Shown piece by piece: positions 1,256-17,783 of a stretch of DNA of 20,001 nt. Position numbers and translations under genes: made by a program. This DNA is from a virus, in the IMG/VR virus record IMGVR_UViG_3300032323_002134, positions 1-20,001 of that record; one strand, written 5' to 3'. Numbering within the stretch: position 1 is the first letter of the stretch; every line of letters starts with the position of its first letter. The notes beneath the pieces are model-generated. The model searched no databases and was not told the DNA's origin. It saw only the letters and a program-made list of their open reading frames with translations.

Positions 1256-1265
1256 GGGGGAGAAG

Positions 1266-3578
1266 ATGGATTTCGTAGAGTTTCTGGAAGGGCTCGCGCC
1301 GAAGGGCGAGACGCTGTTGGTGGTGCGGCAGAAGGCGGTCATGCGGGACGGCCAGCAGGCGCTGCACGCTGACGGCACGCTGAAATATACTTGGCCCGCC
1401 TACATGCCTTCCAAGCGCCGCAACGACGGCGGGTCGTGGTATGGCAACACCGGATCCTTCATCGTTGACCGCTTCCTGGACGGCCAGCCGTCGGCGGCGG
1501 CGGCCTGCTGCGAATACGTCCTAGTGATGATGCTGGACGACGTGGGGACGAAGGCGAAGGTGCCGCCCCTGCCGCCGACCTGGATCATGCAGTCAAGCGA
1601 GGACTCCTTCCAATGGGGCTACGCCTTTGCGGAGCAGCCGACCAAGGGCGAGTTTACGGCGGCCATGACGGCCATCGCAGAGGCAGGCTACACCGATCCC
1701 GGCGCCGTCAACGCCGTCCGCAACTTCCGACTGCCGGGGTCGGTCAACGTCAAGCCCGGCCGCGACGGCTTCAAGGCGCGCCTGGTGGAGTTCCACCCCG
1801 ACCGCGAGTTCACCCTGCCGCAGATCTGCGAGGCCCTGGGCGTCACGCCAGCGCCCGCTGACACGGCCTCGCAGGGCGTCTTCCGGCTGCGCGACACGGG
1901 CAAGGACGCGGTGCTGGAGTGGCTGAACGAGCAGGGTTTGGTCCTGTCCACGCCCAACCAGGAGGGCTGGCTGGGCGTCGTCTGCCCGAACGCGGCAGAG
2001 CATACCACCGGCCAGAACGAGGCCCGCTATAACCCGATCAACCGCGCCTTCTGCTGCTATCACGGCCATTGCGAGCATCTGGACAGCGCCGCCTTTCTCA
2101 AGTGGGTCTGCGACCAGGGCGGCCCCCGTGCCGGCCACGGCCTGCGGGATGAGCTGCTGGCGGAGCAGATGGCCCGCACCCTCGACAAGCTGACGCCGAC
2201 CGAGACGTTCCCCGACCGGGCCGCCGAGATCATCGCGGAGGTGGACCGCAAGGAATTGGGCCGGGTCGAGAAGGCGAGCTGGTATGAGCGGTTCGCCTAT
2301 GTCCTGTCGGACGACTGCTACTTTGACCTAGTGGATCGCCGGGAGATCAGCCGGGGCGCCTTCAACGCCCTGTTCCGCCACATCCCCTGCCGGTCCATCC
2401 ACGGCGGGAAGAAGATCGAGGCCAGCACCTGCTATGACGAGAACCGCCAGGCGATGGGCGCCCGCGTCTTGGTGGGCGTCACCTACGCCGCAGGCGAGAG
2501 CGTCCTCGTCTCGCGCAACGGCGAGGTCTACGGCAACCGTTGGGCCAATGCCCGACCGGACGTGTCGAAGGCGCCTGGCGGCGACGTGTCGCGCTGGGTC
2601 GAGCATTGCAAGCGGCTGGTGCCGGATCCCCGCGACCTCGAACACATTTGGGACGTGATGGCGTTCAAGCTCCAGAACCCCCGCGTCAAGATCAACCACG
2701 CGATCCTCCACGGCGGCCACGGCGGCAGCGGTAAGGACACGATGTGGGCGCCGTTTATGTGGGCGGTCTGCGGCCCGACGCTGGTCAACCGGGGGCTGAT
2801 CGACGGCGACACGATCAACAGCCAATGGGGATACGCGCTGGAAAGCGAAGTGATCCTGCTGAACGAGCTGAAGGAGCCAGAGGCGCGGGAGCGCCGGGCG
2901 CTGGCGAACCGGCTGAAGCCGATCATCGCCGCCCCGCCGGAATACCTTGTGGTCAACCGCAAGGGTCTGCACCCCTATGACACGCTGAACCGGGCGTTCG
3001 TCCTGGCGTTCTCCAACGACATGATCCCGCTCACGCTGTCGAGCGACGACCGGCGCTGGTTTGTGATCTGGTCTACGGCGCCGCGCATGGACCCGAAGGA
3101 GGCGCAGGCGATCTGGCGCTGGTATAAGGAGCAGGACGGCTTCGCGGCCATTGCCCGCTGGCTCTACGCCCGCGACGTGTCGGCGTTCAACCCTGGCGCG
3201 GCCCCGCCCATGACGGACGTGAAGGCATCGCTGGTCGAACACAGCATGAGCATGGCCGAGAGCGTCATCGTCGAGATGGTGCGGAACCGCCAGGGCGAGT
3301 TCTCCCGCGGCGTGATCGGCGGGCCGTTCCAGGCGGTCTGTGATCGTCTCCAGGCGCTGATGCCGCCGGGTGCCAAGGTGCCACCAGCGGCGCTGCTGCA
3401 CGCGATCCAAGAGGCTGGCTGGATCGACATGGGCCGGCTGTATTCAACGGACTATCTGACGAAGAAGCACATTTTCGCGGCGCCGGAGATGGCGTCGTCC
3501 TACACAAAAAGCGACCTTCGGCGCATGATCGAGGACTCGACCGCGCCGAAGGTAGTTGATCTTAAGCTTGTGAAGTGA
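1266..3578 (+). CDS. Primase-helicase (RepB/PrimPol-like N-terminus, DUF5906 SF3-like helicase)
   Basis: 770-residue replication protein expected to prime and unwind phage DNA for the neighbouring polymerase. Start chosen at the ATG at 1266 because GAGGGGGAG sits just upstream; an in-frame ATG at 1245 overlaps the polymerase end. Residues ~100-190 resemble the RepB/PrimPol domain, with NFRLPGSVNVKPG at ~153. A likely zinc site follows (Cys240, then CCYHGHC at 263-269). The C-terminal half is an NrS-1-polymerase-like/DUF5906 helicase: Walker A GGHGGSGKDT at 483-492, Walker B VILLNE at 529-534, and SN..PLTLSSDDRRWFV with the probable arginine finger near 596-597. This single-protein primase-helicase plus PolA pair is common in temperate and lytic phages of Proteobacteria. 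The 3' end overlaps the convergent gene by 17 bp. Confidence 0.92.
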   Translation: MDFVEFLEGLAPKGETLLVVRQKAVMRDGQQALHADGTLKYTWPAYMPSKRRNDGGSWYGNTGSFIVDRFLDGQPSAAAACCEYVLVMMLDDVGTKAKVPPLPPTWIMQSSEDSFQWGYAFAEQPTKGEFTAAMTAIAEAGYTDPGAVNAVRNFRLPGSVNVKPGRDGFKARLVEFHPDREFTLPQICEALGVTPAPADTASQGVFRLRDTGKDAVLEWLNEQGLVLSTPNQEGWLGVVCPNAAEHTTGQNEARYNPINRAFCCYHGHCEHLDSAAFLKWVCDQGGPRAGHGLRDELLAEQMARTLDKLTPTETFPDRAAEIIAEVDRKELGRVEKASWYERFAYVLSDDCYFDLVDRREISRGAFNALFRHIPCRSIHGGKKIEASTCYDENRQAMGARVLVGVTYAAGESVLVSRNGEVYGNRWANARPDVSKAPGGDVSRWVEHCKRLVPDPRDLEHIWDVMAFKLQNPRVKINHAILHGGHGGSGKDTMWAPFMWAVCGPTLVNRGLIDGDTINSQWGYALESEVILLNELKEPEARERRALANRLKPIIAAPPEYLVVNRKGLHPYDTLNRAFVLAFSNDMIPLTLSSDDRRWFVIWSTAPRMDPKEAQAIWRWYKEQDGFAAIARWLYARDVSAFNPGAAPPMTDVKASLVEHSMSMAESVIVEMVRNRQGEFSRGVIGGPFQAVCDRLQALMPPGAKVPPAALLHAIQEAGWIDMGRLYSTDYLTKKHIFAAPEMASSYTKSDLRRMIEDSTAPKVVDLKLVK

Positions 3579-3989: not shown

Positions 3990-4168
3990 CCGGCCAGCGC
4001 CTCCCGCGCGGAGCGCACCAGCGTCTCGGCCAGCCGCAGCGCCTGCGCCGGGGTCAGGTCGGCCACGCGGTCGTCGGCATAGGTTGAACCGTTCAGCACC
4101 AGCCGGATCTGGCCTTGATGCCAGATGGCGAAAGCCTCTTTGACAGGCGGCAGGTCGCGGTCATTCAT
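3986..4168 (-). CDS. Hypothetical protein, 60 aa
   Basis: Short soluble protein with a beta-like first half (AFAIWHQGQIRLVLNGSTY) and a helical second half (LTPAQALRLAETLVRSAREAL). Linked by an ATGA overlap to the next gene (3986-3989) and overlapping the upstream gene by 8 nt, which supports real, coupled translation. The LTPAQALRLAE segment is the kind of helix seen in many small phage accessory proteins. I do not recognise a family and see no catalytic or binding motif. Confidence 0.75.
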   Translation of the reverse strand: MNDRDLPPVKEAFAIWHQGQIRLVLNGSTYADDRVADLTPAQALRLAETLVRSAREALAG

Positions 4169-4424
4169 CGCTTATCGAGCCCCAATATTGGATTTCGTCG
4201 GCCTCTTCGAGGTCGGGCCGGTAAATGCCCTTCCGCAGCGCGGACAGGGCTTGCGATAGGTCGAGGCTGGCGCGCTTCATCGCCGCGTTGAGCGTCGGCG
4301 GCGTCTGGTTGTCGTCCTTGTCCTTCATCGCGTGTTCCAGCATCTCCAAGCGGCGCAGGAACCGGCGGGCCTCAGCCTTAGCCGTGGCCATCCGCGTCTT
4401 ATACCCGTCGTTATAGTCGCCCAT
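4161..4424 (-). CDS. Hypothetical coiled-coil-like protein, 87 aa
   Basis: Unrecognised soluble protein: MGDYNDGYKTRMATAKAEAR, then a charged helical stretch (RRFLRRLEMLEHAMKDKDDN), a TPPTLNAAMKRA linker, and an acidic C-terminus ending SISDE. The helical, heptad-compatible content suggests an oligomerising or adaptor protein, but this is inference only. Its ATG forms a TAATG one-base overlap with the stop of the upstream gene at 4424, and its 3' end overlaps the next gene by 8 nt. Both are consistent with a tightly coupled polycistronic message. Confidence 0.75.
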   Translation of the reverse strand: MGDYNDGYKTRMATAKAEARRFLRRLEMLEHAMKDKDDNQTPPTLNAAMKRASLDLSQALSALRKGIYRPDLEEADEIQYWGSISDE

Positions 4425-4675
4425 TACAGCTTCGCTCCCAGCTTGGGGTCACGCGACGGGACCAGCCCGCCGCCCGGCAGGCGCCGCCGGGGCTCGCCCA
4501 GCGTCTTGACAATCTCGCGCTCAAGCTGGCGCAGGACGTAGGTCCACGCCCCGATGGGCGCCGGGTCGTCGCCGTTGTCGCCCGCGTGGCGGTCCAGCAG
4601 CACAATGACCCGCTCGGCTGCGGCAAACGCCTCGCACATGGCCACGTCGGCGTCGTAACTCAGATCGCGTCCCAT
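4424..4675 (-). CDS. Hypothetical protein, 83 aa
   Basis: Starts at the ATG at 4675-4673, chosen over a much longer upstream reading because a near-ideal AGGAGGGA ribosome-binding site lies just before it. The longer frame is an arginine-rich shadow of the upstream gene. The protein begins MGRDLSYDADVAMCEAFAAA, has a short hydrophobic strand (ERVIVLLDRH), then GAWTYVLRQLEREIVKTLG, and a Gly/Pro/basic tail. Helical and soluble; family not recognised. Preceded by one copy of the shared ACACAAG...AGACC leader. Confidence 0.75.
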   Translation of the reverse strand: MGRDLSYDADVAMCEAFAAAERVIVLLDRHAGDNGDDPAPIGAWTYVLRQLEREIVKTLGEPRRRLPGGGLVPSRDPKLGAKL

Positions 4676-4676
4676 T

Positions 4677-4699
4677 GGTCTATCCCTCCTGTCTTGTGT
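4677..4699 (-). promoter_or_regulatory. Shared leader / strong RBS, copy 1
   Basis: Read on the minus strand: ACACAAG, then AGGAGGGA, then TAGACCA directly before the ATG at 4675. The ACACAAG...GGGAYAGACC pattern recurs before the starts at 6110 and 7683, and in weaker form at 8283 and 8552. The central purine run is a Shine-Dalgarno sequence; the conserved flanks are more than ribosome binding needs. Confidence 0.6.
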
Positions 4700-5004
4700 C
4701 AGTAGATACCGGCCATCTCGCGCAGCAGGCGCTTGCCGGCGGCGGTGACGGTCAGCCGCACCTTGCGGCGATCCTCGTCGTCCTGCACCCGCAGCAGCAG
4801 CCCCAGCAGAACCAGCCGATCGGCGGCGCGGGTGACAACGGGTTTCTGTATGTCCAGCGCGTCCGCGATTGGACCGTTGCTCAAGCCGGGGTATGCGTCG
4901 GCCAGCGCCAGGATAGCCATCTGGCGGCAGGTCATGTTGGCGTCGGCGTCGGCGGCGACGACGAACGGCCAAACGTTCGCGGGGAAGTCGAGATTGTCGG
5001 TCAT
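4699..5004 (-). CDS. MarR-like winged helix-turn-helix protein, 101 aa
   Basis: Probable DNA-binding regulator. The ATG at 5004-5002 is chosen because GAAAGGGA precedes it at good spacing; the 14 extra upstream codons have no ribosome-binding site. Residues ~25-35 form the first helix (TCRQMAILALAD). The helix-turn-helix is GLSNGPIADALDIQKPVVTR at ~39-58, and the wing is DDEDRRKVRLTVTAAGKRLL at ~76-95; this D..DRR..R..LT..G pattern is typical of the MarR family. It is shorter than most MarR proteins (about 140 aa), lacking much of the outer dimerisation helices. It could regulate the leftward block or act on host genes; it may bind repeats in 8650-9180, but nothing in the sequence proves that. 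Confidence 0.8.
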   Translation of the reverse strand: MTDNLDFPANVWPFVVAADADANMTCRQMAILALADAYPGLSNGPIADALDIQKPVVTRAADRLVLLGLLLRVQDDEDRRKVRLTVTAAGKRLLREMAGIY

Positions 5005-5018
5005 TGTATCGGTCCCTT

Positions 5019-5312
5019 TCAAATTGCGTGGCGGCAATAGCCGCACAGTCGGTTATGTGGTCCCTCGCTGTCAAACGTTTTCGAGCAGCGAAGGCAGGCT
5101 CGCTCGATGGTGCGCGGGCGGTTGACGTAGCGTTGCACGCGCTCCTCTGCGGCCCGTGCGGCCCGCAGCATCCGGGTGCGGTAGTTCCACCATGCGCTTA
5201 GGCCCTTGCCGGTGATCCCGCCGATCTGCTCGGCTAGGTCGTCCCACGTCACGCCAGCAGCGCGGCCTTGCGCCACCAGCCGTGCGCGGCGGCTCTCGGC
5301 GTCCTCCGTCAT
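5019..5312 (-). CDS. Small zinc-finger protein with putative HTH, 97 aa
   Basis: Starts at the ATG at 5312-5310, which shares one base with the stop of the upstream gene (TGATG). The N-terminal ~50 residues (RLVAQGRAAGVTWDDLAEQI, then GKGLSAWWNYR) look like a small helical DNA-binding domain of the kind that scans for a 'W-D-DLA' repertoire. The C-terminus carries CLRC...LCGYC, two CxxC pairs 13 residues apart, a likely zinc ribbon or treble-clef finger. Such HTH-plus-zinc proteins in phages are usually transcription factors or nucleic-acid adaptors. With the adjacent MarR-like gene it makes a pair of candidate regulators. Exact family not recognised. Confidence 0.75.
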   Translation of the reverse strand: MTEDAESRRARLVAQGRAAGVTWDDLAEQIGGITGKGLSAWWNYRTRMLRAARAAEERVQRYVNRPRTIERACLRCSKTFDSEGPHNRLCGYCRHAI

Positions 5313-5539
5313 CAGCGGCTCCGCAGGGGCCGCACGTTGGCGTAGGGCGTGCCGTCCCATGCCTGCTGGCGCCAATGCGGCGGGACCGTGCGGCCTTCCA
5401 GCAGCCGCGCCCGCTCGATTAGGTCGGGCATCACTAGGGCGAGCAGTTCGAGCGCCACGATGGCCCGGTCGGGGTCGCCTTCGGTCGCCAGCGTGGCGGC
5501 CATGTCAGCGATGGCCGTCAGGTCGTCCGTCAGGCTCAT
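5312..5539 (-). CDS. Hypothetical protein, 75 aa
   Basis: The internal ATG at 5539-5537 is preferred; the frame upstream of it is an Arg-rich shadow of the next gene. Begins MSLTDDLTAIADMAATLATE, contains a hydrophobic helical section (AIVALELLALVMPDLIERAR) and ends in a Trp/Pro-containing tail (PPHWRQQAWDGTPYANV). The hydrophobic stretch is interrupted by acidic residues and looks like a buried amphipathic helix, not a membrane segment. No family recognised. Two bases separate it from the upstream gene and it shares one base with the downstream gene, so it sits firmly in the operon. Confidence 0.72.
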   Translation of the reverse strand: MSLTDDLTAIADMAATLATEGDPDRAIVALELLALVMPDLIERARLLEGRTVPPHWRQQAWDGTPYANVRPLRSR

Positions 5540-5541
5540 GA

Positions 5542-5883
5542 TTAGTGCTTCTGAACCACGCGGCGGGCCTGCGCGATGGCGTCGGCGCGCTTCTCTTCGT
5601 CGCCCATATCGTGGGCGTACAGCCACGCGAGCAGCGCCGTCAGCAATTGGTCGCGCTCGTCCTGCGACCAGTCGAGTTTGATTTCTAAGATGGCCACCTC
5701 TTTACGCAGGTCCAAACCCATGTCGTCCACCATCATGCGGGCGCTATCCCGTTCGCCCCGCAGGCATTCGCGGTCCATCAGCAGGGTGCGGAACGTGTCC
5801 GCGAGGAATTGCGTCGTCTCTTCTCGGTCAAGCTGGCCGATAAGGTGCAGGATGGCGTCGTTGCTGATGTCAATCTTGCTCAT
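5542..5883 (-). CDS. Hypothetical acidic helical protein, 113 aa
   Basis: The ATG at 5883-5881 is preceded by CGGAGACA and forms an ATGA overlap (5880-5883) with the upstream gene; the 61 additional upstream codons are a shadow. Begins MSKIDISNDAILHLIGQLDR and is almost entirely helical and highly charged (RGERDSARMMVDDMGLDLR, KEVAILEIKLDWSQDERDQL). It has coiled-coil character between residues ~35 and 80 and a C-terminal EEKRADAIAQARRVVQ helix. Perhaps an oligomeric partner or inhibitor; no known family is apparent. Confidence 0.75.
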   Translation of the reverse strand: MSKIDISNDAILHLIGQLDREETTQFLADTFRTLLMDRECLRGERDSARMMVDDMGLDLRKEVAILEIKLDWSQDERDQLLTALLAWLYAHDMGDEEKRADAIAQARRVVQKH

Positions 5884-6110
5884 GTGCGTGTCTCCGTTGT
5901 GGTAGGCAGTTTGGCGGGCTCGCGCCCGTTGTGCTTGGCCCACAGGGCCTCGGCCTCGTCCAACTGGCGGCCAAGGTCGGCCAGCGTGCGGTTGATCCGC
6001 CAATGTTCTTCGCCGCCCACATACGCCAGCCGTAACAGGTGTTCTTGCATAGTGATGGCGGCGCACAAGACGCGGATCGTGCGGAAGGGTGGCGGGTTGG
6101 TTCTAATCAT
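5880..6110 (-). CDS. Hypothetical protein, 76 aa
   Basis: Begins MIRTNPPPFRTIRVLCAAIT and continues with two helices (QEHLLRLAYVGGEEHWRINR and TLADLGRQLDEAEALWAKH), ending in a Thr-rich tail. The start is supported by the second copy of the shared leader (GGGGGATAGACC) immediately upstream and by the ATGA overlap with the downstream gene. Small and soluble, with no catalytic motif. Family unknown to me. Confidence 0.75.
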   Translation of the reverse strand: MIRTNPPPFRTIRVLCAAITMQEHLLRLAYVGGEEHWRINRTLADLGRQLDEAEALWAKHNGREPAKLPTTTETRT

Positions 6111-6259
6111 GATTGCGGTCTATCCCCCTCTTGTGTAACGCTGTCTGTGGCGGTGCTGCGGTGGTCGCGCCTGCCATGCGCTGCGGCAGCCCTCCCCCGG
6201 CCCGCGCATCGCCCGGCCCGCTGCGTTGTCCCTCGCGGCGGGCCGGGCCTTTTCGTCAT
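6107..6259 (-). CDS. Doubtful 50-aa basic ORF
   Basis: The frame begins MTKRPGPPRGTTQRAGRCAG and continues Arg/Gly/Ala-rich to a stop at 6107. For: it shares ATGA overlaps with both neighbours (6107-6110 and 6256-6259) and otherwise fills a 145-bp hole in a block with almost no gaps. Against: the composition is typical of an out-of-frame high-GC reading, the region contains strong inverted repeats, and its last codons would run through a leader that is intergenic elsewhere. It may be a structured non-coding spacer instead. Confidence 0.33.
   Translation of the reverse strand: MTKRPGPPRGTTQRAGRCAGRGRAAAAHGRRDHRSTATDSVTQEGDRPQS
6114..6136 (-). promoter_or_regulatory. Shared leader / RBS, copy 2
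   Basis: On the minus strand ACACAAG is followed by AGGGGGATAGACC, then six bases (GCAATC) and the ATG at 6110. Matches copy 1 at nearly every position of the ACACAAG and GGGATAGACC blocks. Confidence 0.55.
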
Positions 6260-6268
6260 GGCAGGCGC
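6167..6268. repeat. Nested GC-rich inverted repeats
   Basis: Outer arms: GCGCCTGCCATG at 6167-6178 and its exact complement CATGGCAGGCGC at 6257-6268. Inside lies a second perfect 11-bp stem, GCCCGGCCCGC (6210-6220) pairing with GCGGGCCGGGC (6238-6248), with TTTT just after it on the plus strand (6250-6253). On the minus strand the outer arm covers the ATGA junction at 6256-6259. It could be a structured RNA, a terminator for rightward (antisense) transcription coming from the primase side, or a translation-control hairpin. Confidence 0.55.
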
Positions 6269-6474
6269 ACCCGCACGTCGATCCCGACCGTGTAAAAGAT
6301 GACGGCGCGCGGGCGGTCGGCGTCGTCCCATTCGACCGTGATGCGGTCCGGGTGGGTCCGGTCGTCCGGGATGACGATCCCATCTCGGCTTGCGAGCCAT
6401 TGGGCATAAAGCGCGGCCCGGTAGCGGTCGAGGTCTTCGCCCCGATAGCGGTGATGCATGGTGGCGGTGCTCAT
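6256..6474 (-). CDS. Hypothetical protein, 72 aa
   Basis: Begins MSTATMHHRYRGEDLDRYRA, with an early helix (YRAALYAQWLAS), then a strand-rich acidic part (DGIVIPDD, DRITVEWDDAD) and a final beta-like stretch (AVIFYTVGIDVRVRLP). GAGGAGA, a good Shine-Dalgarno sequence, lies just upstream within the tail of the preceding gene. The mixed alpha/beta pattern is like small phage accessory proteins. Family and function unknown. Confidence 0.78.
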   Translation of the reverse strand: MSTATMHHRYRGEDLDRYRAALYAQWLASRDGIVIPDDRTHPDRITVEWDDADRPRAVIFYTVGIDVRVRLP

Positions 6475-6477
6475 GTC

Positions 6478-6915
6478 CTATTTCTCCTCGATCATGCGGC
6501 GGAAACAGTCTGCCGCCTCGCGCCAGACGCCAATTGCGGCGTCCGCAGCGCGGGCGGCGTCGGCAGCAGCGCGAGCAGCGGCGCGAGCCTCTGCGCGGGC
6601 CTCGGCGGTGCGGGCGGCGGCGGCGTAATCAGAGCGGGGGGTTCCGGGAGTTAAAGCGGCGATAGCTTCCGCCCGCATCTGCATCGGTGCATGGCCGCGT
6701 GCTCTAAACCACGCGTTCTTGGTGTTAACAGTAACGTATTCGCCGGAGGGGATGACGTAGATGTCCTCGCGCCTCTCAATGGATATCGCATGGGCCTTGC
6801 GGATGGCGTCCAAGAAACACGACGTTTGCTCCAGTAAGTAAACGGGGCGCCGGTCTACTGGCGTGCTTGCGGTTTGGGACCGGCGGTAAATGTCAAAGCT
6901 ATTGGGTATGCTCAT
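6478..6915 (-). CDS. Hypothetical protein with Ala-rich coiled-coil tail, 145 aa
   Basis: Largest gene of the leftward block. The N-terminal ~85 residues look globular (MSIPNSFDIYRRSQT..., SCFLDAIRKAHAISIERRED, then IYVIPSGEYVTVNTKNAWF). Residues ~95-132 are a monotonous Ala/Arg/Glu helix (ARTAEARAEARAAARAAADA...), followed by GVWREAADCFRRMIEEK. The tail should form an extended helix or coiled coil. The DNA under the tail is a near-repeat of GCG/GCC codons. The start is in an ATGA overlap with a 23-codon membrane peptide frame and has AGAGGGGA upstream. Codon use in the N-terminal half is less GC-rich than its neighbours. No recognised family. Confidence 0.8.
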   Translation of the reverse strand: MSIPNSFDIYRRSQTASTPVDRRPVYLLEQTSCFLDAIRKAHAISIERREDIYVIPSGEYVTVNTKNAWFRARGHAPMQMRAEAIAALTPGTPRSDYAAAARTAEARAEARAAARAAADAARAADAAIGVWREAADCFRRMIEEK

Positions 6916-6983
6916 GGCGTTCCCCTCTGGCGTAGCGTCGCGGCCAGAATGGCAACGGCGCGGATGATTAGGTCCAGGATCAC
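6912..6983 (-). CDS. Putative 23-aa membrane micropeptide
   Basis: GTG start at 6983 inside a GTGA overlap (6980-6983) with the upstream stop; the stop is in an ATGA overlap (6912-6915) with the next start. The peptide is a hydrophobic helix, (M)ILDLIIRAVAILAATL, ending RQRGTP, which fits a single short transmembrane or membrane-surface helix with a positive C-terminal end. Both junctions match the coupling seen throughout the block. It is very short, so chance cannot be excluded. Confidence 0.4.
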   Translation of the reverse strand: MILDLIIRAVAILAATLRQRGTP

Positions 6984-7192
6984 GGCGCGGCCTGCGGCGC
7001 CGTTAGCTTGTGCATGTCCGCAAGCGTGCTGGCGGCGTCCTCGCAGAGCCAATGCAGCCCCATGGTGACGCTCTGCGGTAGGCGGTGCGTCTCGGCGTCG
7101 GCGTGCAGCGCGGCTAGGTCCGTGCGGATGCGCTCTAGCATCTGCACGCGGTAGGCAAGCGCGTCGGCGCTCAGGGGTGCGGGCGTGCTCAT
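6980..7192 (-). CDS. Hypothetical helical protein, 70 aa
   Basis: ATG at 7192-7190, in an ATGA overlap with the upstream gene; the longer frame to 7285 is a shadow. Begins MSTPAPLSADALAYRVQMLE, then IRTDLAALHADAETHRLPQS and GLHWLCEDAASTLADMHKL. Two or three soluble helices separated by a short loop. No DNA-binding, catalytic or membrane feature; family unknown. Position within the coupled chain supports it as real. Confidence 0.75.
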   Translation of the reverse strand: MSTPAPLSADALAYRVQMLERIRTDLAALHADAETHRLPQSVTMGLHWLCEDAASTLADMHKLTAPQAAP

Positions 7193-7437
7193 GTGAAATA
7201 GTATTCCCACGCAGCGATGACGGCGTGATCGGGCGGGAGCGTGTCGTCGTCGGAGTCGTTTTTGTAGAATTGCCGCGCGGCCCACAGTAGGTTGTCAAAC
7301 GTATCGGACGGACGTTCAGATGCGTCGAAAGGGTTTTCGGCTGCGGTGTCCAGCAGCAGCTCATCCCCCCGGCGGATTTCGAGGCTTTCGACGATGCCGC
7401 ATGCGTTGCGGCGCCAGATGACGGTGGTGGTGGGCAT
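7189..7437 (-). CDS. Hypothetical acidic protein, 82 aa
   Basis: Begins MPTTTVIWRRNACGIVESLE and is beta-like over the first 30 residues (VIWRR...IVESLEIRRGDELLLDT), then acidic and loop-rich (DNLLWAARQFYKNDSDDDTL) with a helical end (AVIAAWEYYFT). AAGGGGA lies 12-18 bases upstream of the ATG in the spacer to the next gene. Net negative charge is common in phage proteins that mimic DNA or inhibit host enzymes, but nothing here supports that specifically. Confidence 0.78.
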   Translation of the reverse strand: MPTTTVIWRRNACGIVESLEIRRGDELLLDTAAENPFDASERPSDTFDNLLWAARQFYKNDSDDDTLPPDHAVIAAWEYYFT

Positions 7438-7452
7438 AGTGCGGTGGTCCCC

Positions 7453-7683
7453 TTAGCGGTTGCAGACGAAGGCGTAGCTGGAGCCCGGCAGGCTCCCGCC
7501 CACCATGTCCTCGGGCCAGCCGTAGCGGCGGGCGAGGGCCACGGCGGCGGCCTTGTGGTTGTCATGGACGCCGAGAGCATAGTCCCATGACAGCATGATG
7601 GAGCCAGCGTCCGCGCGGGCCGAGACGCGGGCGCCGCGGGTGTTGGTCGGGCCGTGGAACTTGGTCTGGATGGCTTGATACAT
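7453..7683 (-). CDS. Conserved phage hypothetical protein, 76 aa
   Basis: Begins MYQAIQTKFHGPTNTRGARV, then SARADAGSIMLSWDYALGVH, DNHKAAAVALARRYGW and a Gly/Ser loop ending SSYAFVCNR. I recognise this pattern (MYQAI.TKF.GPTN.RG.R..A.AD.G.....WD.AL....NH..AA..LA...GW) as a widespread uncharacterised small protein of phages and some bacteria; its function is unknown. Preceded by the clearest copy of the shared leader (ACACAAGGGGACAGACC, directly before the ATG) and a possible sigma70-like promoter. Confidence 0.85.
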   Translation of the reverse strand: MYQAIQTKFHGPTNTRGARVSARADAGSIMLSWDYALGVHDNHKAAAVALARRYGWPEDMVGGSLPGSSYAFVCNR

Positions 7684-7700
7684 GGTCTGTCCCCTTGTGT
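7684..7700 (-). promoter_or_regulatory. Shared leader / RBS, copy 3
   Basis: The minus strand reads ACACAAGGGGACAGACC and runs straight into the ATG at 7683. It contains the Shine-Dalgarno AAGGGGA. This is the most compact form of the shared leader. Confidence 0.6.
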
Positions 7701-7718
7701 GCGATGGTCGCAGGAAAG

Positions 7719-7747
7719 TTTATGGCAGTTTGCTTGTCGGGTTGCAA
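7719..7747 (-). promoter_or_regulatory. Possible sigma70-like promoter inside the leftward block
   Basis: On the minus strand, TTGCAA (7747-7742), a 17-bp spacer, then CATAAA (7724-7719); each box matches four of six consensus bases. It lies in one of the few real gaps of the block (7701-7753), upstream of the leader and gene at 7683. Weak boxes, good spacing and good position. Confidence 0.35.
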
Positions 7748-7753
7748 TAGGCT

Positions 7754-7852
7754 CTATGGCGTCACGATTAGCAGCGCCCAAAAGGCGGTGACGCACAGGC
7801 CGGCGGTGATCCCGTAGGCTATGGCGGTGGCGATGATGCGAAGCGTGTTCAT
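7754..7852 (-). CDS. Small single-span membrane protein, 32 aa
   Basis: ATG at 7852-7850, with GAGAGGA 10-16 bases upstream. The peptide begins MNTLRIIATAIAYGITAGLC and continues VTAFWALLIVTP before a TAG stop. It is one hydrophobic helix of about 25 residues with a single Arg near the N-terminus, so it should sit in the inner membrane with a very short tail on either side. Small membrane proteins in phage early regions include superinfection-exclusion and lysis-timing factors, but sequence alone does not choose among these. The stop is followed by a real spacer containing the possible promoter. Confidence 0.65.
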   Translation of the reverse strand: MNTLRIIATAIAYGITAGLCVTAFWALLIVTP

Positions 7853-7865
7853 GTGTGCGGTCCTC

Positions 7866-8024
7866 TCAGTTGCTGGCGGTAGGGGCGGTATCGACCCACC
7901 AATCGGACCCGATATCGCCGCTGATTTCAGCGGCTACGCCGGCATCTATGGCGGCCTCTACCGTCTCGCACGGAGGAGTGCGGCGGCCTTGTGTGTCGAT
8001 GGCCACATACTGGGCGCGGGTCAT
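7866..8024 (-). CDS. Hypothetical protein, 52 aa
   Basis: ATG at 8024-8022; the longer frame to 8141 is a shadow of the upstream gene. Begins MTRAQYVAIDTQGRRTPPCE, then TVEAAIDAGVAAEISGDIGS and DWWVDTAPTASN. A short strand, a helix and an acidic/aromatic tail suggest a compact soluble protein. The start has only a weak ribosome-binding site, but lies four bases from the upstream stop, so translation is probably coupled. No family recognised. Confidence 0.65.
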   Translation of the reverse strand: MTRAQYVAIDTQGRRTPPCETVEAAIDAGVAAEISGDIGSDWWVDTAPTASN

Positions 8025-8028
8025 GGCG

Positions 8029-8283
8029 CTAGCGGTTCCAGAGCAACAGAGCGCCGCCCATGGCGCGGTAGGCGCGCCCCGTGGCCACGGCGCCTGCCTC
8101 GGCTTCGCGCAGGGCATCTTCCGCGTCGTCATAGCGCTCACGGAGGCCCGGCCCTGCCATGTCTAGGCACGTGCTGAACGGAGTGTTGCGGTCCGGACCG
8201 CACGCGTAGACCTGTGCCCGGACGGCATCCAGCGCGGCTTGCAGTTTGGCGACGCGGGCCTTTGTAGGCTTGTGCTGGGACAT
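8029..8283 (-). CDS. Hypothetical helical protein, 84 aa
   Basis: Begins MSQHKPTKARVAKLQAALDA, followed by VRAQVYACGPDRNTPFSTCL, DMAGPGLRERYDDAEDALRE and AEAGAVATGRAYRAMGGALL. Two long helices are separated by a loop containing two cysteines. Soluble; the basic start and acidic middle give mixed charge. The fourth, slightly divergent copy of the shared leader (AAGGGAGACTGACACC) precedes the ATG. Family unknown. Confidence 0.78.
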   Translation of the reverse strand: MSQHKPTKARVAKLQAALDAVRAQVYACGPDRNTPFSTCLDMAGPGLRERYDDAEDALREAEAGAVATGRAYRAMGGALLLWNR

Positions 8284-8303
8284 GGTGTCAGTCTCCCTTG
8301 TGT
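8284..8303 (-). promoter_or_regulatory. Shared leader / RBS, copy 4 (divergent)
   Basis: The minus strand reads ACACAAGGGAGACTGACACC directly before the ATG at 8283. The ACACAAGGGA half is exact; the AGACC half is loosely kept. Confidence 0.5.
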
Positions 8304-8317
8304 CGTCGAGCTACTGG

Positions 8318-8360
8318 CGCTCGCCATGCGCGCGGCGGGGACCGCGCGCGGGCGCGAGCG
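8318..8360 (-). terminator. GC-rich hairpin between two leftward genes
   Basis: CGCTCGC (8318-8324) pairs with GCGAGCG (8354-8360). Inside, GCGCGCGG (8328-8335) pairs perfectly with CCGCGCGC (8342-8349) around a 6-base loop. It lies immediately after the stop of the first gene of the block (8361). No U-run follows on the minus strand, so it is not a classical intrinsic terminator; attenuation, transcript processing or 3'-end protection are alternatives. Confidence 0.45.
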
Positions 8361-8552
8361 TCAGCGGGTAGCGAAGCGCGCGAACAATTCTTGCGTAGGG
8401 TATCCGCGCTGGCGGGCCACGCTGGCGACGGCATCGCAGCAGCGACGGTGCCAGTTGGTGCTGCACACATAGACCGCGCCGGATGCCGTTTTGCGGTAAA
8501 CGTCAATCTTGCGCTGAAGCTTGCCGGTGCGCTCAAACTCACTCGCGGCCAT
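8361..8552 (-). CDS. Hypothetical protein, 63 aa, first gene of the leftward block
   Basis: Begins MAASEFERTGKLQRKIDVYR and continues KTASGAVYVCSTNWHRRCCD and AVASVARQRGYPTQELFARF. A basic, probably beta-hairpin-plus-helix protein with a C-x6-HRRCC arrangement that could bind a metal, though with only three Cys and one His this is weak. Upstream AAGGGATCAGACAG resembles the 3' half of the shared leader. As the promoter-proximal gene of a leftward early transcript it is a candidate immediate-early product. Family unknown. Confidence 0.75.
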   Translation of the reverse strand: MAASEFERTGKLQRKIDVYRKTASGAVYVCSTNWHRRCCDAVASVARQRGYPTQELFARFATR

Positions 8553-8657
8553 CTGTCTGATCCCTTATCGGTTGCGACAAAGGAAGCTTATCGGCCTCAC
8601 ACACTAGGCGCAACACATTTTTTGACGGCGGGCGAAGTTTTTTCGCGCCCCCGCCAG

Positions 8658-9069
8658 CCTAGGTAATCTAGGTAGTCGAAAGCGAGGGTCGATCGGAGGG
8701 ATGCTAGGTGGGTTAGGTGTGGGGTTTGGCCTGGCCTAGGTAGTTGGCCAAAGGGCAGAAAGCGCCGCCTTTCCAACGAGATAGCGCGGGCTCTAGGTCA
8801 TCTAGGTAGTGTTGTATGTATATACTTAAGATATAATAGGTATATATACCTATATAGTATTATAGGGGTGAGTGGACGAATGACGGTTCTAGGCATGACC
8901 TAGACTGCCTAACACTACCTAGGCCCGCGCAGCCTCGCCGACGACGCCGCATCACGCCCGCGCAGCTCCGCCAGCTCCATGCCTCGCGCTGACATGTCTA
9001 GGCATGACCTAGACTACCTAGACTGCGTGTCTGGCGTTGACGCTGATAGGCATGACCTAGATTGCCTAG
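8658..9069. repeat. CTAG repeat array
   Basis: CTAG begins at 8659, 8668, 8704, 8736, 8793, 8802, 8889, 8900, 8919, 8998, 9009, 9018, 9057 and 9066, with an outlier at 8604. Right of the AT-rich core, three units share TAGGCATGACCTAGA (8890, 8999, 9047), with spacing of 11 then 9 bp; degenerate members are CTAA at 8909 and ATAG at 9046. Left of the core the copies read CTAGGTAGT, the inverted orientation. The spacing close to one helical turn suggests cooperative binding of one protein. Confidence 0.75.
8802..8922. repeat. AT-rich core bounded by a 12-bp inverted repeat
   Basis: CTAGGTAGTGTT (8802-8813) and AACACTACCTAG (8911-8922) are exact inverted copies. Between them, 8814-8864 is almost all A/T, in sharp contrast with the GC-rich surroundings. 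It contains GTATATAC (8818-8825), CTTAAG (8825-8830) and the perfect 18-bp palindrome ATAGGTATATATACCTAT (8836-8853). TATAAT occurs on the plus strand at 8832-8837 and on the minus strand at 8864-8859, but no good -35 box is correctly spaced for either. Could be a DNA-unwinding element or a divergent promoter. Confidence 0.6.
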
Positions 9070-9126
9070 GCCCGCGCCAGGCCGCGGCGTATACATTCCA
9101 ACGCCTGCACATGTGTGCACATGCAC

Positions 9127-9174
9127 AGTTGAACAGCTGTTCATATGAACAGTTGAACACCTGTTCATATGTTC
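9127..9174. repeat. 24-bp tandem repeat with GAAC-N4-GTTC palindromes
   Basis: Two units (9127-9150 and 9151-9174) match at 21 of 24 positions. Each holds a dyad: GAACAGCTGTTC at 9131-9142 (perfect) and GAACACCTGTTC at 9155-9166, 24 bp centre to centre. CATATG follows each. Just upstream, TGCACATG occurs twice 10 bp apart (9106-9113, 9116-9123). The layout is that of a cooperative repressor or activator operator. GAAC-N4-GTTC is the known form of the Bacillus/actinobacterial LexA box, not the alphaproteobacterial one (GTTC-N7-GTTC). Confidence 0.6.
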
Positions 9175-9221
9175 AGCTATCGACACTAAAACGATGCCAA
9201 AAGCCAATGGCCGGGGGGAGG

Positions 9222-9272
9222 GGCCCCGCCGGCCGCCCGGTCCAGGGCCGGAGGGGCCACAAACAATTTTTT
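9222..9272 (+). terminator. Terminator-like hairpin ahead of the terminase genes
   Basis: GGCCCC-G-CCGGCC (9222-9234) pairs with GGCCGG-A-GGGGCC (9246-9258), a 12-bp stem with one mismatch and an 11-base loop. After an eight-base gap comes a T6 run (9267-9272) in the same direction as the late genes. The gap is longer than in a textbook intrinsic terminator. It lies just upstream of the small terminase, so rightward transcripts starting in the repeat region would meet it first. Confidence 0.45.
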
Positions 9273-9320
9273 AAAATTTGCAAAATTGCCTCCGCGTCAC
9301 ACAACATGATACAAGCGGGC

Positions 9321-9770
9321 ATGTCCGTTTTCTCCCTCCCGTATGAGCCGCGCCGGCTGCAAGCGACGGAAGCGCGGCTAGAGGCCATATACAACGCGGC
9401 GCGTAAGGGCCTGCGTGGGGACACGCTGGCGCTGGCCGCCGGGATGCGCCCCACCGAGTACCGCACCTTATGCGAGTTCGACCCGCTGGCGGCGCTGGCC
9501 GAGGAGAAGGGCCGCGCCGACGGCGAACTGGAGATGGCGGGCGTGCTGTACGACGCCGCCAAAGGCGGCGACGCTAAGGCGGCGCTCGACATTCTCAAGC
9601 ACACCCACGGCTGGGTGGCAAAGCAGGCCGTGCAGGTTGAGGTCAACCAGACGATCTCGATCACGAACGCGCTACAGGAGGCGCAGCGCCGCGTCATCGA
9701 GGGGGTCGCAGAGCCCACGCTGACCGAAGACGCGAAGCCCTACCCGGAACGCATCCGTGCAGACGGTTAA
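9321..9770 (+). CDS. Terminase small subunit
   Basis: DNA-recognition subunit of the packaging motor, recruiting the large subunit to phage DNA. The ATG at 9321 gives 149 aa, normal for the family; an ATG at 9306 is an alternative. The frame is open back to 8979, but that stretch translates repeats and a hairpin and is not credible protein. Begins MSVFSLPYEPRRL; TEARLEAIYNAARKGLRGDT and LALAAGMRPTEYRTLCEFDP form the HTH-like N-terminal domain. GRADGELEMAGVLYDAAKGG and DAKAALDILKHTHGWVAKQ follow, a pattern I know from phage small terminases of Proteobacteria; the tail is acidic. It overlaps the large subunit start by 14 nt. The absence of a clear ribosome-binding site leaves the start uncertain. 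Confidence 0.82.
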   Translation: MSVFSLPYEPRRLQATEARLEAIYNAARKGLRGDTLALAAGMRPTEYRTLCEFDPLAALAEEKGRADGELEMAGVLYDAAKGGDAKAALDILKHTHGWVAKQAVQVEVNQTISITNALQEAQRRVIEGVAEPTLTEDAKPYPERIRADG

Positions 9771-11280
9771 GTACTCGCCCGACGACGAGATGGAGTTGAT
9801 GAGCCGGCTGTGGACGCCGGCCATCAAGGACGACCCGCTGAAGTTCGTGCTGTTCACCTTCCCGTGGGGGCAGAAGGGCACGCCGCTGGAGCACTTCCAG
9901 GGACCGCGTAAGTGGCAACGGGACGTGTTGCAGACCCTTGCGGACCACATCCGCAGCAACAACGGCAAGGTGGACTTCGACACCTTCCGCATGGCCATCT
10001 CATCGGGCCGCGGTATCGGCAAGTCGGCGCTCGTCTCCTGGCTGGTTATCTGGATGCTGACGACCAGGATTGGCTCGACGACCATCGTGTCGGCCAACTC
10101 CGAGGCGCAGCTTCGCTCCGTCACCTGGGCCGAAATCACCAAGTGGCTCTCAATGGCCCTCAACAGCCATTGGTTTGAGGTCAGCGCGACCCGCGTCATG
10201 CCGGCGAAATGGCTGACGGAGCTGGTCGAGCGCGACCTCAAGATGGGCACGCGCTACTGGGGTGTCGAAGGCCGGCTGTGGTCGGCGGAGAACCCCGACG
10301 CCTACGCGGGCGTCCACAACTTCGACGGCGTGATGCTGATCTACGACGAGGCCAGCGGTATCGACGACACGATCTGGTCGGTCGCCGCCGGCTTCTTCAC
10401 CGAGAACACGCCGCACCGCTTCTGGCTGGCGTTCAGCAACCCCCGCCGCAACGCGGGGTACTTCTACGAGTGCTTCCACTCCAAGCGGGACTTCTGGTCC
10501 ACCAAGATCGTGGACGCCCGGTCGGTCGAGGGCACAGACAAGCAGGTCTACCAGCAGATCATCGACGAGTACGGGCCGGACAGCACCCAGGCCCACGTCG
10601 AAGTCTACGGGCAGTTCCCCAACGCCTCCGACGACCAGTTCATCGGGGCGTCCGTGGTGGACGACGCCATGCGCCGCCCCCAGCACAAGGATCCGTCGGC
10701 GCCGGTCATCATCGGGGTGGACCCGGCGCGGTTCGGGTCGGACAGCACCGTCATCGCTGTGCGCCAGGGGCGCGACATCATCGCCATCAAGCGGCACAAG
10801 GGCGACGACACCATGACCGTCGTCGGCCACGTCATCGAGGCCATCGAGACGTACAAGCCAGCCCTAGTGGTCATCGACGAGGGCGGCCTGGGGGCTGGCA
10901 TCGTGGACCGGCTCAAGGAGCAGCGGTACAAGATCAAGGGGGTTAACTTCGGCAACAAGTCGAAGAACCCGGTGATGTGGGGCAACAAGCGGGCCGAGAT
11001 GTGGGGCGAAATGCGGGCTTGGCTGAAGGACGCATCCATCCCCCTCGACCGCTATCTGAAGAACGACCTGACCGGGCCGATGATGAAGCCGGACAGCAAG
11101 GGGACGATCTTCCTAGAGAGCAAGAAGGACATGAAGGCCCGCGGGCTGGCCAGCCCCGACGCGGCCGACGCCATTGCCGTTACCTTCGCCTTCCCGGTGG
11201 CCCATCGGGAATATGTGGACAGGACACCCCGTCGCAACTATGCTGCGGGCGGCATACAGACGTCTTGGATGGGATCTTAG
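9757..11280 (+). CDS. Terminase large subunit (ATPase-nuclease)
   Basis: 507-aa packaging motor that translocates and cuts phage DNA at the portal. The GTG start at 9757 overlaps the small subunit; the next in-frame ATG (9790) would still keep all motifs. ATPase: Walker A-like GRGIGKS at 84-90, Walker B VMLIYDEA at 192-199, and a C-motif-like AFSNP near 225-229. RNase H-like nuclease: first acid in VIIGVDPARFGSD (Asp322), second in LVVIDEGG (Asp374), third in SPDAADA (Asp468/Asp471). The full set is present, so it should be active. Placement between small terminase and the virion genes is standard. Confidence 0.96.
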   Translation: MQTVKYSPDDEMELMSRLWTPAIKDDPLKFVLFTFPWGQKGTPLEHFQGPRKWQRDVLQTLADHIRSNNGKVDFDTFRMAISSGRGIGKSALVSWLVIWMLTTRIGSTTIVSANSEAQLRSVTWAEITKWLSMALNSHWFEVSATRVMPAKWLTELVERDLKMGTRYWGVEGRLWSAENPDAYAGVHNFDGVMLIYDEASGIDDTIWSVAAGFFTENTPHRFWLAFSNPRRNAGYFYECFHSKRDFWSTKIVDARSVEGTDKQVYQQIIDEYGPDSTQAHVEVYGQFPNASDDQFIGASVVDDAMRRPQHKDPSAPVIIGVDPARFGSDSTVIAVRQGRDIIAIKRHKGDDTMTVVGHVIEAIETYKPALVVIDEGGLGAGIVDRLKEQRYKIKGVNFGNKSKNPVMWGNKRAEMWGEMRAWLKDASIPLDRYLKNDLTGPMMKPDSKGTIFLESKKDMKARGLASPDAADAIAVTFAFPVAHREYVDRTPRRNYAAGGIQTSWMGS

Positions 11281-11283
11281 GAC

Positions 11284-11697
11284 ATGTCGAGCAACACCAA
11301 GCCGATTGGCGTCGCCTACGAAGACCAGGACATCGTTGGCTCCAACCGTATTCTGTCGGGCGATGAACTGGGCTACGCGCCGGAGGCCCAGGGCGCCGTG
11401 ACCCAGGCGACCAGCAAGTCCACGGCCGTGACGCTGAACACTTCGGCGGGCCGCATCACGATGAACAACGCCTCGCTGGGCGCGACGACCAACGTGACCT
11501 TCACGCTGAACAACTCCAAGATCAGCCTCAACGACGTGATGGTTCTGAGCGTGTCGGAGAATGCGACCGCCGGGGCCTACAACTGCTGGGTTTCGGGTAA
11601 GTCGGTCGGTTCGGCCACCATCACGGTGCGGAACATCAGCGCCAGCCCGCTGTCCGAAGCGGTCGTCATCAACTTCGCCATTATCCACTGCGTGTAA
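11284..11697 (+). CDS. Probable virion-associated beta-rich protein, 137 aa
   Basis: Begins MSSNTKPIGVAYEDQDIVGS. After residue ~38 it is strand-rich with Thr/Ser/Asn (TQATSKSTAVTLNTSAGRIT, NVTFTLNNSKI, VMVLSVSE, then GAYNCWVSGKS, ATITVRNISASPLSEAVVIN). I recognise this TQATSKST..TLN...G.I.M...L pattern from uncharacterised proteins beside phage head genes; a beta-sandwich decoration or structural role is likely but unproven. TTAGGA lies just upstream of the ATG. It ends in a TAATG overlap with the next gene. Confidence 0.82.
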   Translation: MSSNTKPIGVAYEDQDIVGSNRILSGDELGYAPEAQGAVTQATSKSTAVTLNTSAGRITMNNASLGATTNVTFTLNNSKISLNDVMVLSVSENATAGAYNCWVSGKSVGSATITVRNISASPLSEAVVINFAIIHCV

Positions 11698-11954
11698 TGC
11701 CGAAGAAGGGCGTCTCCCTAGCCGTAGGCCGAGGCGAGAAGCTACCGACGAGCAAGGGCGCCGGCCTGACTGCAAAGGGCCGGGCCAAGTACAATCGCGA
11801 GACGGGCTCCAACCTCAAGCCCCCGGCTCCCAGCCCCAAGACCGAGGCTGACGCTAGACGGAAAGCTAGCTTTTGTGCGAGAATGGCACCTATCGCAAAA
11901 AAAGCGGGCGAGGGTAGCCGTGCAAAAGCCTCTATGCGTCGTTGGAAATGCTGA
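11697..11954 (+). CDS. Small basic DUF6321-like protein, 85 aa
   Basis: Begins MPKKGVSLAVGRGEKLPTSK, with the family signature KGAGLTAKGRAKYNRETGSN near residues 20-39 and a C-terminal SFCARM......RAKASMRRWKC. I recognise this as the DUF6321-type small phage protein that commonly sits between terminase and portal; its function is unknown. Its basic, Gly/Lys-rich make-up suggests nucleic-acid contact, possibly packaged with DNA. From about 11850 onward codon choice turns markedly less GC-rich than in the rest of the gene, just where the adjacent HNH gene begins. The start is in a TAATG overlap. Confidence 0.85.
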   Translation: MPKKGVSLAVGRGEKLPTSKGAGLTAKGRAKYNRETGSNLKPPAPSPKTEADARRKASFCARMAPIAKKAGEGSRAKASMRRWKC

Positions 11955-11964
11955 GGACGTTGAG

Positions 11965-12393
11965 ATGTGGCTCGACGTCAAAGGCTATGAAGGAAAATAC
12001 CAAGTCAGCAGTTTGGGCCGCGTAAAATCGCTTGCCCGAACGCGACGCGGCAAAAGTAACTGCTTGGTCCCCATTCCAGAAATTATGATGCGTCTATCGA
12101 TTAAGAAGGATAATGGGCGCACAAAGCCATATGCTGAGGTGAGGTTTCGCAATGGGGGACTTAGGACCGAACGGTGCAAAGCGTTTTTGGTGCATCGTTT
12201 AGTTGCGGACGCTTTTATTAAGCGTTTGGAACCCGGCGAACAGGTTGATCACATTAACGGTGTCCATAGCGACAACCGGGCGGCTAATTTACGGGTTATG
12301 AAATCCGTTGAACATGCTAGGATGCACCCTACTGTGGTACAGCCGAACCCGAGAGATGCCGTTTCCGGCAGGTATGCAAAGAGGACGGTGTGA
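11965..12393 (+). CDS. HNH homing endonuclease with NUMOD4 domain, 142 aa
   Basis: Free-standing homing endonuclease expected to cut an allele lacking the gene and spread by repair. The ATG at 11965 is chosen because GAGGA precedes it by seven bases; the upstream 30 codons in frame overlap the previous gene and are a shadow. Residues 2-30 are NUMOD4: W.DVKGYEGKYQVSSLGRVKSLAR. Residues ~74-118 are the HNH_3 core: LVHRLVADAF with His77, VDHINGVHSDNR with Asp95-His96-Asn98, and NLRVMKSVEHAR. All key residues are present. Codon usage is clearly more A/T-rich than its neighbours, a mark of recent insertion. It ends in a TGATG overlap with the next gene, so the operon is not broken. Confidence 0.92.
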   Translation: MWLDVKGYEGKYQVSSLGRVKSLARTRRGKSNCLVPIPEIMMRLSIKKDNGRTKPYAEVRFRNGGLRTERCKAFLVHRLVADAFIKRLEPGEQVDHINGVHSDNRAANLRVMKSVEHARMHPTVVQPNPRDAVSGRYAKRTV

Positions 12394-12554
12394 TGGCCAA
12401 GCCAGGTCTGTACGCCAACATCCACGCGAAGAAGGCCCGCATCGCCGCCGGCTCCGGCGAGAAGATGCGGAAGCCGGGCTCCAAGGGCGCGCCCACCGCG
12501 GCTGCGTTCCGCGAGTCTGCCAAGACGGCCAAGCCCGCGAAGAAGGGTAAGTGA
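12393..12554 (+). CDS. Small basic conserved phage protein, 53 aa
   Basis: Starts at the ATG at 12393 overlapping the HNH stop by one base. Begins MAKPGLYANIHAKKARIAAG, then SGEKMRKPGSKGAPTAAAFR and a Lys/Ala-rich tail (ESAKTAKPAKKGK). The PGLYANIHAK..RIAAGSGEKMR pattern is one I know from short conserved proteins next to phage portal genes and in some bacterial genomes; no function is established. The high lysine content suggests DNA or RNA contact. The overlapping longer frame (12308-12550) is a shadow. Confidence 0.85.
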   Translation: MAKPGLYANIHAKKARIAAGSGEKMRKPGSKGAPTAAAFRESAKTAKPAKKGK

Positions 12555-12555
12555 C

Positions 12556-12981
12556 ATGCCCGGCGGCGCCGCATCCGGCTACCCGCAGGGCTTTTACGGG
12601 ATAGGCGTGCGCCAGGATCTGTTCCCCGGCGAAGATGACTATTTTCGCCGCAACCCCAACGTCACGGGCATGGCGGCCGAAGACGACCGCATCATCATGA
12701 ACCCGTACAGCCGGCTAAACGACGCGCAGCGCCGTGCGGTCATGCTGAACGAGGCGGCCCGAGTTCACATGCGGCGCAACTTTGACGCCCCGCAGTTCAC
12801 CCTGACACCGACTCAAACCGAGCGGTTTAAGGGGTATTCTAACGACGAAGCGGATGTACGAGCTACCATCGCCGCACGTATTCTTTCTGGCGACACGTCC
12901 GCTGGCGATGCTACGCCGGAGCAACTAGACTACGTTTCTAGGCTTCGCCGGTTCATGGGAGTGACAGATGCCGCTCGTTAA
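12556..12981 (+). CDS. Conserved phage hypothetical protein, 141 aa
   Basis: Begins [20 protein letters not shown]; the core [20 protein letters not shown], then [21 protein letters not shown] and [15 protein letters not shown] is one I recognise from phages with P22-like portals, usually unannotated and upstream of the portal. The C-terminus is helical ([29 protein letters not shown]). The polar, acidic character and position suggest a structural or assembly role; nothing indicates an enzyme. AAGAAGGG lies about eight bases upstream, and the 3' end overlaps the next gene by 14 nt. Confidence 0.82.
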
Positions 12982-13108
12982 ATCAGCATCCAAGGATGCG
13001 TTCCGCAAGAACGTGAAGGCTGAGATTGCCGCCGGCAAGCCGCCGAAGCAGGCGGTCGCAATCGCGTACTCGACCAAGCGCGAAGCGGCCAAGAAAGGCA
13101 AGAAGTAA
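12968..13108 (+). CDS. Small basic conserved phage protein, 46 aa
   Basis: ATG at 12968 inside the end of the previous gene. Reads [20 protein letters not shown], then [20 protein letters not shown] and a Lys-rich end. The pattern [15 protein letters not shown]...[12 protein letters not shown] is strongly conserved across many unrelated tailed phages and is familiar to me, but without an assigned function. Two short helices flank the [11 protein letters not shown] motif, which is also seen in other small basic phage proteins of unknown role. It ends two bases before the portal start. Confidence 0.87.
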
Positions 13109-13110
13109 GC

Positions 13111-15629: not shown

Positions 15630-15643
15630 CGGAGAACGCCCTT

Positions 15644-16015: not shown

Positions 16016-16026
16016 GGGCATAGACC

Positions 16027-17772: not shown

Positions 17773-17783
17773 AGGCCACAGAG

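Follow-up and report, generated by a model that had tools for sequence, protein, structure and literature searches.

The alpha protein of the satellite P4 unites primase and helicase functions with a winged-helix domain at its C-terminus that binds the origin. In the origins of phage-inducible chromosomal islands (PICI), an AT-rich region is always bordered by a set of iterons on each side (PMC6092414). In the PICI-like elements (PLE) of Vibrio cholerae, the DNA-binding domain of RepA covaries with the origin, and the phage nuclease Odn attacks the origin (PMC8263062). In the staphylococcal cassette chromosome mec (SCCmec), the isolated C-terminal domain of Cch2 binds a putative origin with short direct repeats (AAGTG iterons), which are needed for binding (PMC7581432). 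The present analysis deals with an ordered array of CTAG-containing repeats upstream of terS in the IMG/VR virus record IMGVR_UViG_3300032323_002134, of which positions 1 to 20,001 were analyzed (20,001 bp, hereafter the window); by gene content, the phage is a P22-like podophage. The array is very probably the replication origin of this lytic freshwater phage, bound by the C-terminus of the phage's own primase-helicase, with the repeated word and the wing of that C-terminus switching together.

Fifteen CTAG copies were counted between 8604 and 9069, as stated in the initial annotation of this DNA, against 0.64 expected in such a 481-bp stretch from the rest of the window and a mean of 4.6 (maximum 10) in 1000 local dinucleotide shuffles of the array stretch. 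CTAG is not rare in the window as a whole, which contains 41 copies versus 40.8 expected. It is one of many interchangeable words, and its general rarity, which had been put forward alongside, is beside the point. CTAG alone is not the repeated unit. It is its own reverse complement, and the strand sense must therefore come from the flanking CC, the half-site being CCTAG preceded by A or G. The copy at 8604 is probably unrelated to the array; the degenerate half-sites at 8713, 8908 and 9046 are part of it despite having no CTAG. The spacings were found as described earlier, 9 bp at 8659/8668, 8793/8802, 9009/9018 and 9057/9066, and 11 bp at 8889/8900 and 8998/9009. The latter is the distance from CTAG to CTAG; the inverted half-sites themselves lie 10 bp apart from start to start, and the direct repeats 9 bp apart. 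To the left of the AT-rich core, every site reads CCTAG on the minus strand, and each right-hand unit consists of one minus-strand site followed by two or three plus-strand sites at +10 and then +9. The suggested inversion of the left copies around the core thus holds for the left sites versus the direct right sites, but each right unit also starts with an inverted half-site. The sequence TAGGCATGACCTAGA was present in all three right-hand units, and CCTAGGCCCGCGC was common to units 1 and 3, in agreement with the earlier description. For the core, DNA folding gave no hairpin or cruciform better than shuffles (z -0.75).

For the relatives, scoring of the region preceding terS admitted any word of five letters that recurred as a direct repeat at 9 bp or an inverted repeat at 10 bp. 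Many relatives scored far above shuffles at the same place, with differing words: CCTAG (window, L007, and L025), CCTAA (L125), CCGAA (L005, L012, L016, and L021), CCGAG (L006 and L027), CCCAA (L010 and L019), CGGAG or CGTAG (L008, L017, and L020) and, in more distant groups, (G)ACCTA, GACCCA, TGCCAA, and GTCCAC. Across words, the relatives retained the CC, a good part of the spacer sequence and the repeat grammar of 9 and 10 bp; spacing and core were conserved. Alignment of the window with L005 showed identity at 27 of the 27 CC letters and at 16 of the 39 variable-triplet letters, with 68% in the spacers and 91% in the right flank. In almost all copies, the word has thus been swapped at its original position. 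Between the window and its relatives, the core was 79-88% identical for L005, L006, L012, and L027, and the form TGTTATATTATAACA replaced GGTATATATACC in L010, L017 (one mismatch), and L025. The core form is not strictly tied to the word since CCTAG occurs with both forms (window and L025). The exact CCTAG unit was also found in two other IMG/VR contigs, one of them from sample 3300022752. The same sample contains one of the two other contigs with an LYSTDYLTKKH wing, separate from the CCTAG-unit contig as assembled. In this sample, contig 001185 has a CCTAG array but lacks the primase, and contig 000434 has the LYSTDYLTKKH wing but lacks an array.

L125 (contig 3300016469_000254) has a primase 83% identical to that of the window group and a CCTAA array, yet a TerL of 32% identity, indicating that replication and packaging modules exchange. 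A metagenome-assembled genome (MAG) contig of isolate Ki2-D2 (L206) encodes a related primase and harbors, at 8300-9100, an AT-rich array of TTGC-based iterons with 9-bp spacing. The Dishui Lake phage DSL-LC05 (L086, OR003940), with a TerL 71% identical and no primase homologue, carries many TGACCCACTGGGT repeats near terS (3600-4100). No clear array of the window grammar was seen in MW202483 (TerL 79%, primase 55%), nor a comparable array in the intergenic regions examined of the cultured Vibrio phages 1.021.A and MZH0603 (primase about 28-29% identical). The Manatee Spring phage MW202898, which has an integrase-like gene, was not used as a relative because it showed no match to the window primase.

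Close relatives are 94-99% identical in TerL and 89-94% in the primase, and hence few protein differences can account for the word switch. The primase variation was concentrated at the C-terminus and sorted by word. Word distance correlated with primase residues 715-765 over 45 loci (r = 0.59; 0.42 after controlling for TerL and the helicase core). When only the 12 closest phages were compared, r was 0.76 and the partial Mantel r was 0.77 (p = 0.0005, the lowest value attainable with 2000 permutations); the helicase core and TerL gave 0.21 each, neither significant. Sliding windows placed the peak over primase residues 724-772, around the predicted wing. Among 14 close loci, lower values were obtained for TerS (r = 0.17, p = 0.18), for a helix-turn-helix (HTH) protein encoded at 5019-5318 (r = 0.29, p = 0.05) and for two regions between the primase and the array (0.20 and 0.31). 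Region 4424-5074 reached 0.66, but with six phages only, and the frame used contains a stop and is unlikely to be the coding one. The lower scores of the other genes argue against simple linkage, though some contribution of it is possible. TerS and the HTH protein were rejected as word readers owing to this weak covariation, the N-terminal part of TerS being nearly identical in phages of different words.

A search with the C-terminal domain later fetched 66 loci not used before, in which a score of 4 or more was taken as a clear array and from which L243 and L244 were left out, their repeat lying in coding sequence. KSR wings were accompanied by GTCCAC in all nine loci with a detected array (L236, L251, L252, L262, L267, L273, L281, L285, and L286; L274 is apparently a near copy of L273), and SREYQT wings by GCCAA in four of four (L237, L241, L253, and L266). 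L264, with an SKDYMNKKH wing, had GCCTAG, which is near the word of the MNKKH group. When the comparison was confined to phages below 80% helicase-core identity, the nearest wing gave the right word in 33% and the nearest core in 5%. At residue 733, lysine occurred in 12 of 12 TCCAC rows and in no other row; this position is Y with CCTAG and CCTAA in the window's group, D with CCGA, and E with CGGAG. The helicase-core tree requires at least 17 word changes. Together, the covariation and the later-fetched loci support the proposal that the C-terminal domain would set iteron specificity.

The full-length AlphaFold2 model of the primase-helicase (mean predicted local distance difference test score, pLDDT, of 72; predicted template modeling score, pTM, of 0.36) combines an AEP primase with an SF3/D5-type helicase, as in initiators of SaPI (Staphylococcus aureus pathogenicity island)/PICI-type origins. 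The AEP domain matched the S-2L PrimPol (6zp9; Z 13.7 over residues 9-199) and RepB' (Z 11.7), and the helicase matched NrS-1 (Z 16.5), the SaPI5 primase-helicase (7ola/7om0; Z 11.6) and the poxvirus D5 family (Z about 10). Modeled alone, the last 130 residues adopted a winged-helix-like fold with pLDDT of about 81-92 over domain residues 21-110. The P4 origin-binding domain was not among the fold-search matches of this C-terminal domain, a result that does not exclude it, and the sequence profile of the domain gave chance matches only against PDB sequences. The covarying residues lie in and beside the wing hairpin, and the preceding helix, AALLHAIQEAG, is largely conserved. RFX1 reads DNA mainly by its wing. 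The P4 domain has been grouped with RFX1 as winged-helix proteins (PMC10516667), which makes reading by the wing plausible here as well.

A self-loading-helicase origin of the SaPI/PICI or P4 type, residing in a tailed phage, is the best explanation of these observations. Two sets of short iterons with NN-CC-NNN half-sites flank an AT-rich core, the presumed melting region, and we infer that the primase-helicase would bind the iterons through its C-terminal winged-helix domain, the wing reading the variable triplet beside the invariant CC. The protein may then assemble as rings on both sides of the core, melt it and prime synthesis by the phage family A polymerase. In related phages, the wing has switched on many occasions jointly with the word of almost all iterons, and the resulting distinct origin types would be expected not to activate one another. 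The locus shares with SaPI/PICI elements (SaPIbov1, SaPI5 PriRep, and EcCICFT073) the two iteron sets around an AT-rich core and the AEP primase with an SF3-type helicase, the C-terminal domain being the proposed iteron reader. Unlike those elements, it belongs to a tailed phage that itself encodes a family A polymerase, a terminase and a portal, whereas satellite PICI have an integrase and depend on a helper phage for structural genes, and it shows at least 17 word changes within one group. The window protein joins predicted primase and helicase domains and may, like P4 alpha in its ori-crr system, bind the origin by a winged-helix domain at the C-terminus (a predicted fold, with weak matches); P4, however, is a satellite, and a crr-like second site was not seen here. 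PLE are alike in that initiator and origin function only as a cognate pair (PMC8263062), but their RepA belongs to the RepA_N family, and five PLE have two origin types versus about a dozen words here. The initiator architecture resembles that of Cch2, with its D5-type helicase, as well as that of SaPI5 PriRep; the SCCmec system differs in having three iterons only and an unfused primase and in being a staphylococcal cassette. The array had been called undescribed, which is true of this phage group within the literature covered (no paper on it was found among openly licensed ones) and not of the general kind of origin. What is new is that a tailed phage without sign of lysogeny has this layout, that it lies at a distance from the rep gene, and that words have switched on such a scale.

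Most near-complete relatives contained one array per genome. Among 11 long relatives, the array was the top-scoring repeat locus in seven and tied in G043; it was weak or not found in G053, G055, and G049. In most of the 11, the scan gave no convincing further array built on this grammar, the window itself covering only 20 kb. Circular relatives include the 37.8-kb contig of L010. Several observations weigh against the origin reading. The cumulative GC skew was uninformative, showing no consistent extremum at the array in the 11 long relatives. The array starts at 8658, beside terS and 5 kb from the end of the primase gene at 3578, and not directly 3' of the rep gene as in SaPI/PICI. The fold matches of the C-terminal domain, mostly winged-helix proteins, have Z of at most 6.6, which is weak by the yardstick of the tool, and the wing model is a prediction. 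ASSEYQT wings were found with both TGCCAAT and TGCCCAAA. Some relatives, for example seven loci with NSKEYQN wings (L276-L280 and L282-L283; GRINSKEYQNKKH), had no array of the grammar at the threshold; in these seven, the downstream region is present, and their origin may have another geometry. The rows compared are related to one another; tests on independent pairs (contrasts) all pointed in the expected direction, with too few supported pairs for significance. Linkage of the primase 3' end to the array could also add some correlation.

The initial annotation had allowed for an origin or a divergent operator. One array in most genomes, the conserved spacing and core and the covariation of word with primase favor the former. 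If the phage were temperate and the array its operator or immunity region, the repeats would be repressor sites and the words immunity types, which would suit the divergent position between the leftward genes and terS, the immunity-like diversification of the words and the small HTH and zinc-ribbon-like gene at 5019-5318. Such a region is nevertheless quite unlikely, as no Phage_integrase match was obtained in 22 contig relatives, several of about 37-38 kb (other recombinase types were not searched), close relatives of the primase in 84,980 species genomes were limited to two MAG contigs, and a scan of 8500-9350 found no promoter or terminator and, in particular, no sigma-70-like promoter. The HTH protein also tracks the word weakly; the covarying repressor in a temperate phage that characterizes operator/stoperator systems was thus not seen.

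That TerS recognizes the array as a pac site is very improbable. The array lies directly upstream of terS, and four long relatives have end repeats of 123-127 bp, as in circular assemblies, which is consistent with headful packaging; against this stand the lack of correlation between TerS and the word, the near identity of its N-terminal part across words and the presence of another candidate, a conserved GC-rich block at about 9200-9265. There is likewise little probability that the primase-helicase binds the array for assembly or regulation, with synthesis starting elsewhere. Covariation speaks to recognition and not to initiation, and the distance of the array from the primase gene would be compatible with such a role, but tested PICI origins are built in the same way, with a set of iterons on either side of an AT-rich core (PMC6092414), and most near-complete genomes offer no second array.

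If the origin reading is true, these phages provide dozens of natural protein-word pairs for reading and testing the recognition code of an initiator helicase, and the PICI-type origin layout extends to tailed phages whose sampled relatives lack signs of lysogeny. Origin specificity could then switch while the remaining replication protein stays about 90% the same, raising the question of what selects for changing the origin address at some 15 sites together. The mapped wings may make origin-initiator pairs predictable from metagenomes. A more tentative proposal, possible but somewhat doubtful, is a fast-switching origin code in which one winged-helix scaffold reads NN-CC-NNN and small wing changes accompany near-total word replacement, so that nearly identical phages have mutually incompatible origins. 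The driving force might be co-infecting phages, satellites or nucleases that cut origins, any of which could hijack or attack the origin.

Table 1. Coordinates of the array, the primase-helicase and neighboring features in the window.
Feature	Position	Strand	Remarks
Family A DNA polymerase, gene end only	5-1255	+	just upstream of the primase-helicase gene
Primase-helicase, 777 aa, proposed initiator	1245-3578	+	PF19263, phrog_1156, AlphaFold2 model, fold search
AEP primase domain	residues about 9-199		in primase-helicase
SF3/D5-type helicase domain	residues about 431-668		in primase-helicase
Proposed origin-binding domain, winged-helix-like	3186..3575, residues 648-777	+	separate AlphaFold2 model; winged-helix matches; covaries with word
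Wing hairpin GRLYSTDYLTKKH, candidate word reader	3432..3470, residues 730-742	+	
Run of short leftward genes	about 3500-8552	leftward	
Iteron array	8658-9070		leftward genes on one side, terS on the other
Left iteron set, outer part	8658..8740	-	half-sites 8659, 8668, 8704, 8736; 8713 degenerate; direct sequence
Left iteron pair beside core	8792..8806	-	two half-sites 9 bp apart; sequence; aligns with CCGAA/CCGAG pairs in relatives
AT-rich core, palindrome GGTATATATACC, presumed melting region	8812..8880	.	GC dip
Right unit 1	8888..8923	+	inverted half-site 8889; direct 8899, 8908 (degenerate), 8918
Right unit 2	8997..9022	+	inverted half-site 8998; direct 9008, 9017
Right unit 3	9045..9070	+	inverted half-site 9046 (degenerate); direct 9056, 9065
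TerS	9321-9770	+	proposed start ATG 9321; adjoins TerL
TerL	9757-11280	+	
NUMOD4/HNH homing endonuclease	11875-12393	+	between TerL and portal
P22-like portal	13111-15264	+	
Tail-spike-like gene and scaffolding protein			beyond portal in window gene list

Of the terS open reading frame called from 8979, the N-terminal part was dropped; it translates the array and is probably non-coding there. The start was placed at 9321 because close homologues align from that ATG. Between the array and this start, a second conserved repeat cluster with the palindromes TGAACAGCTGTTCA and GTTCATATG occupies 9080-9190; in L007, L012, and L017, GTAATAGATTGTATA repeats take its place in whole or in part. At about 9200-9270 comes the conserved GC-rich block, CCGGGGGGAGGGG...GGTCCAGGGCCGGAGGGGCCACAA, with a T-rich run after it, shortly before terS; close and remote relatives have it too, and the block is a candidate pac site or terminator. 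The small protein encoded on the minus strand at 5019-5318 starts with an HTH-like region and ends in a zinc-ribbon-like one with CxxC...CxxC, gave no Pfam match and is about 55-59% conserved in relatives. Among 83 searched loci, the NUMOD4/HNH gene was seen elsewhere only in L031.
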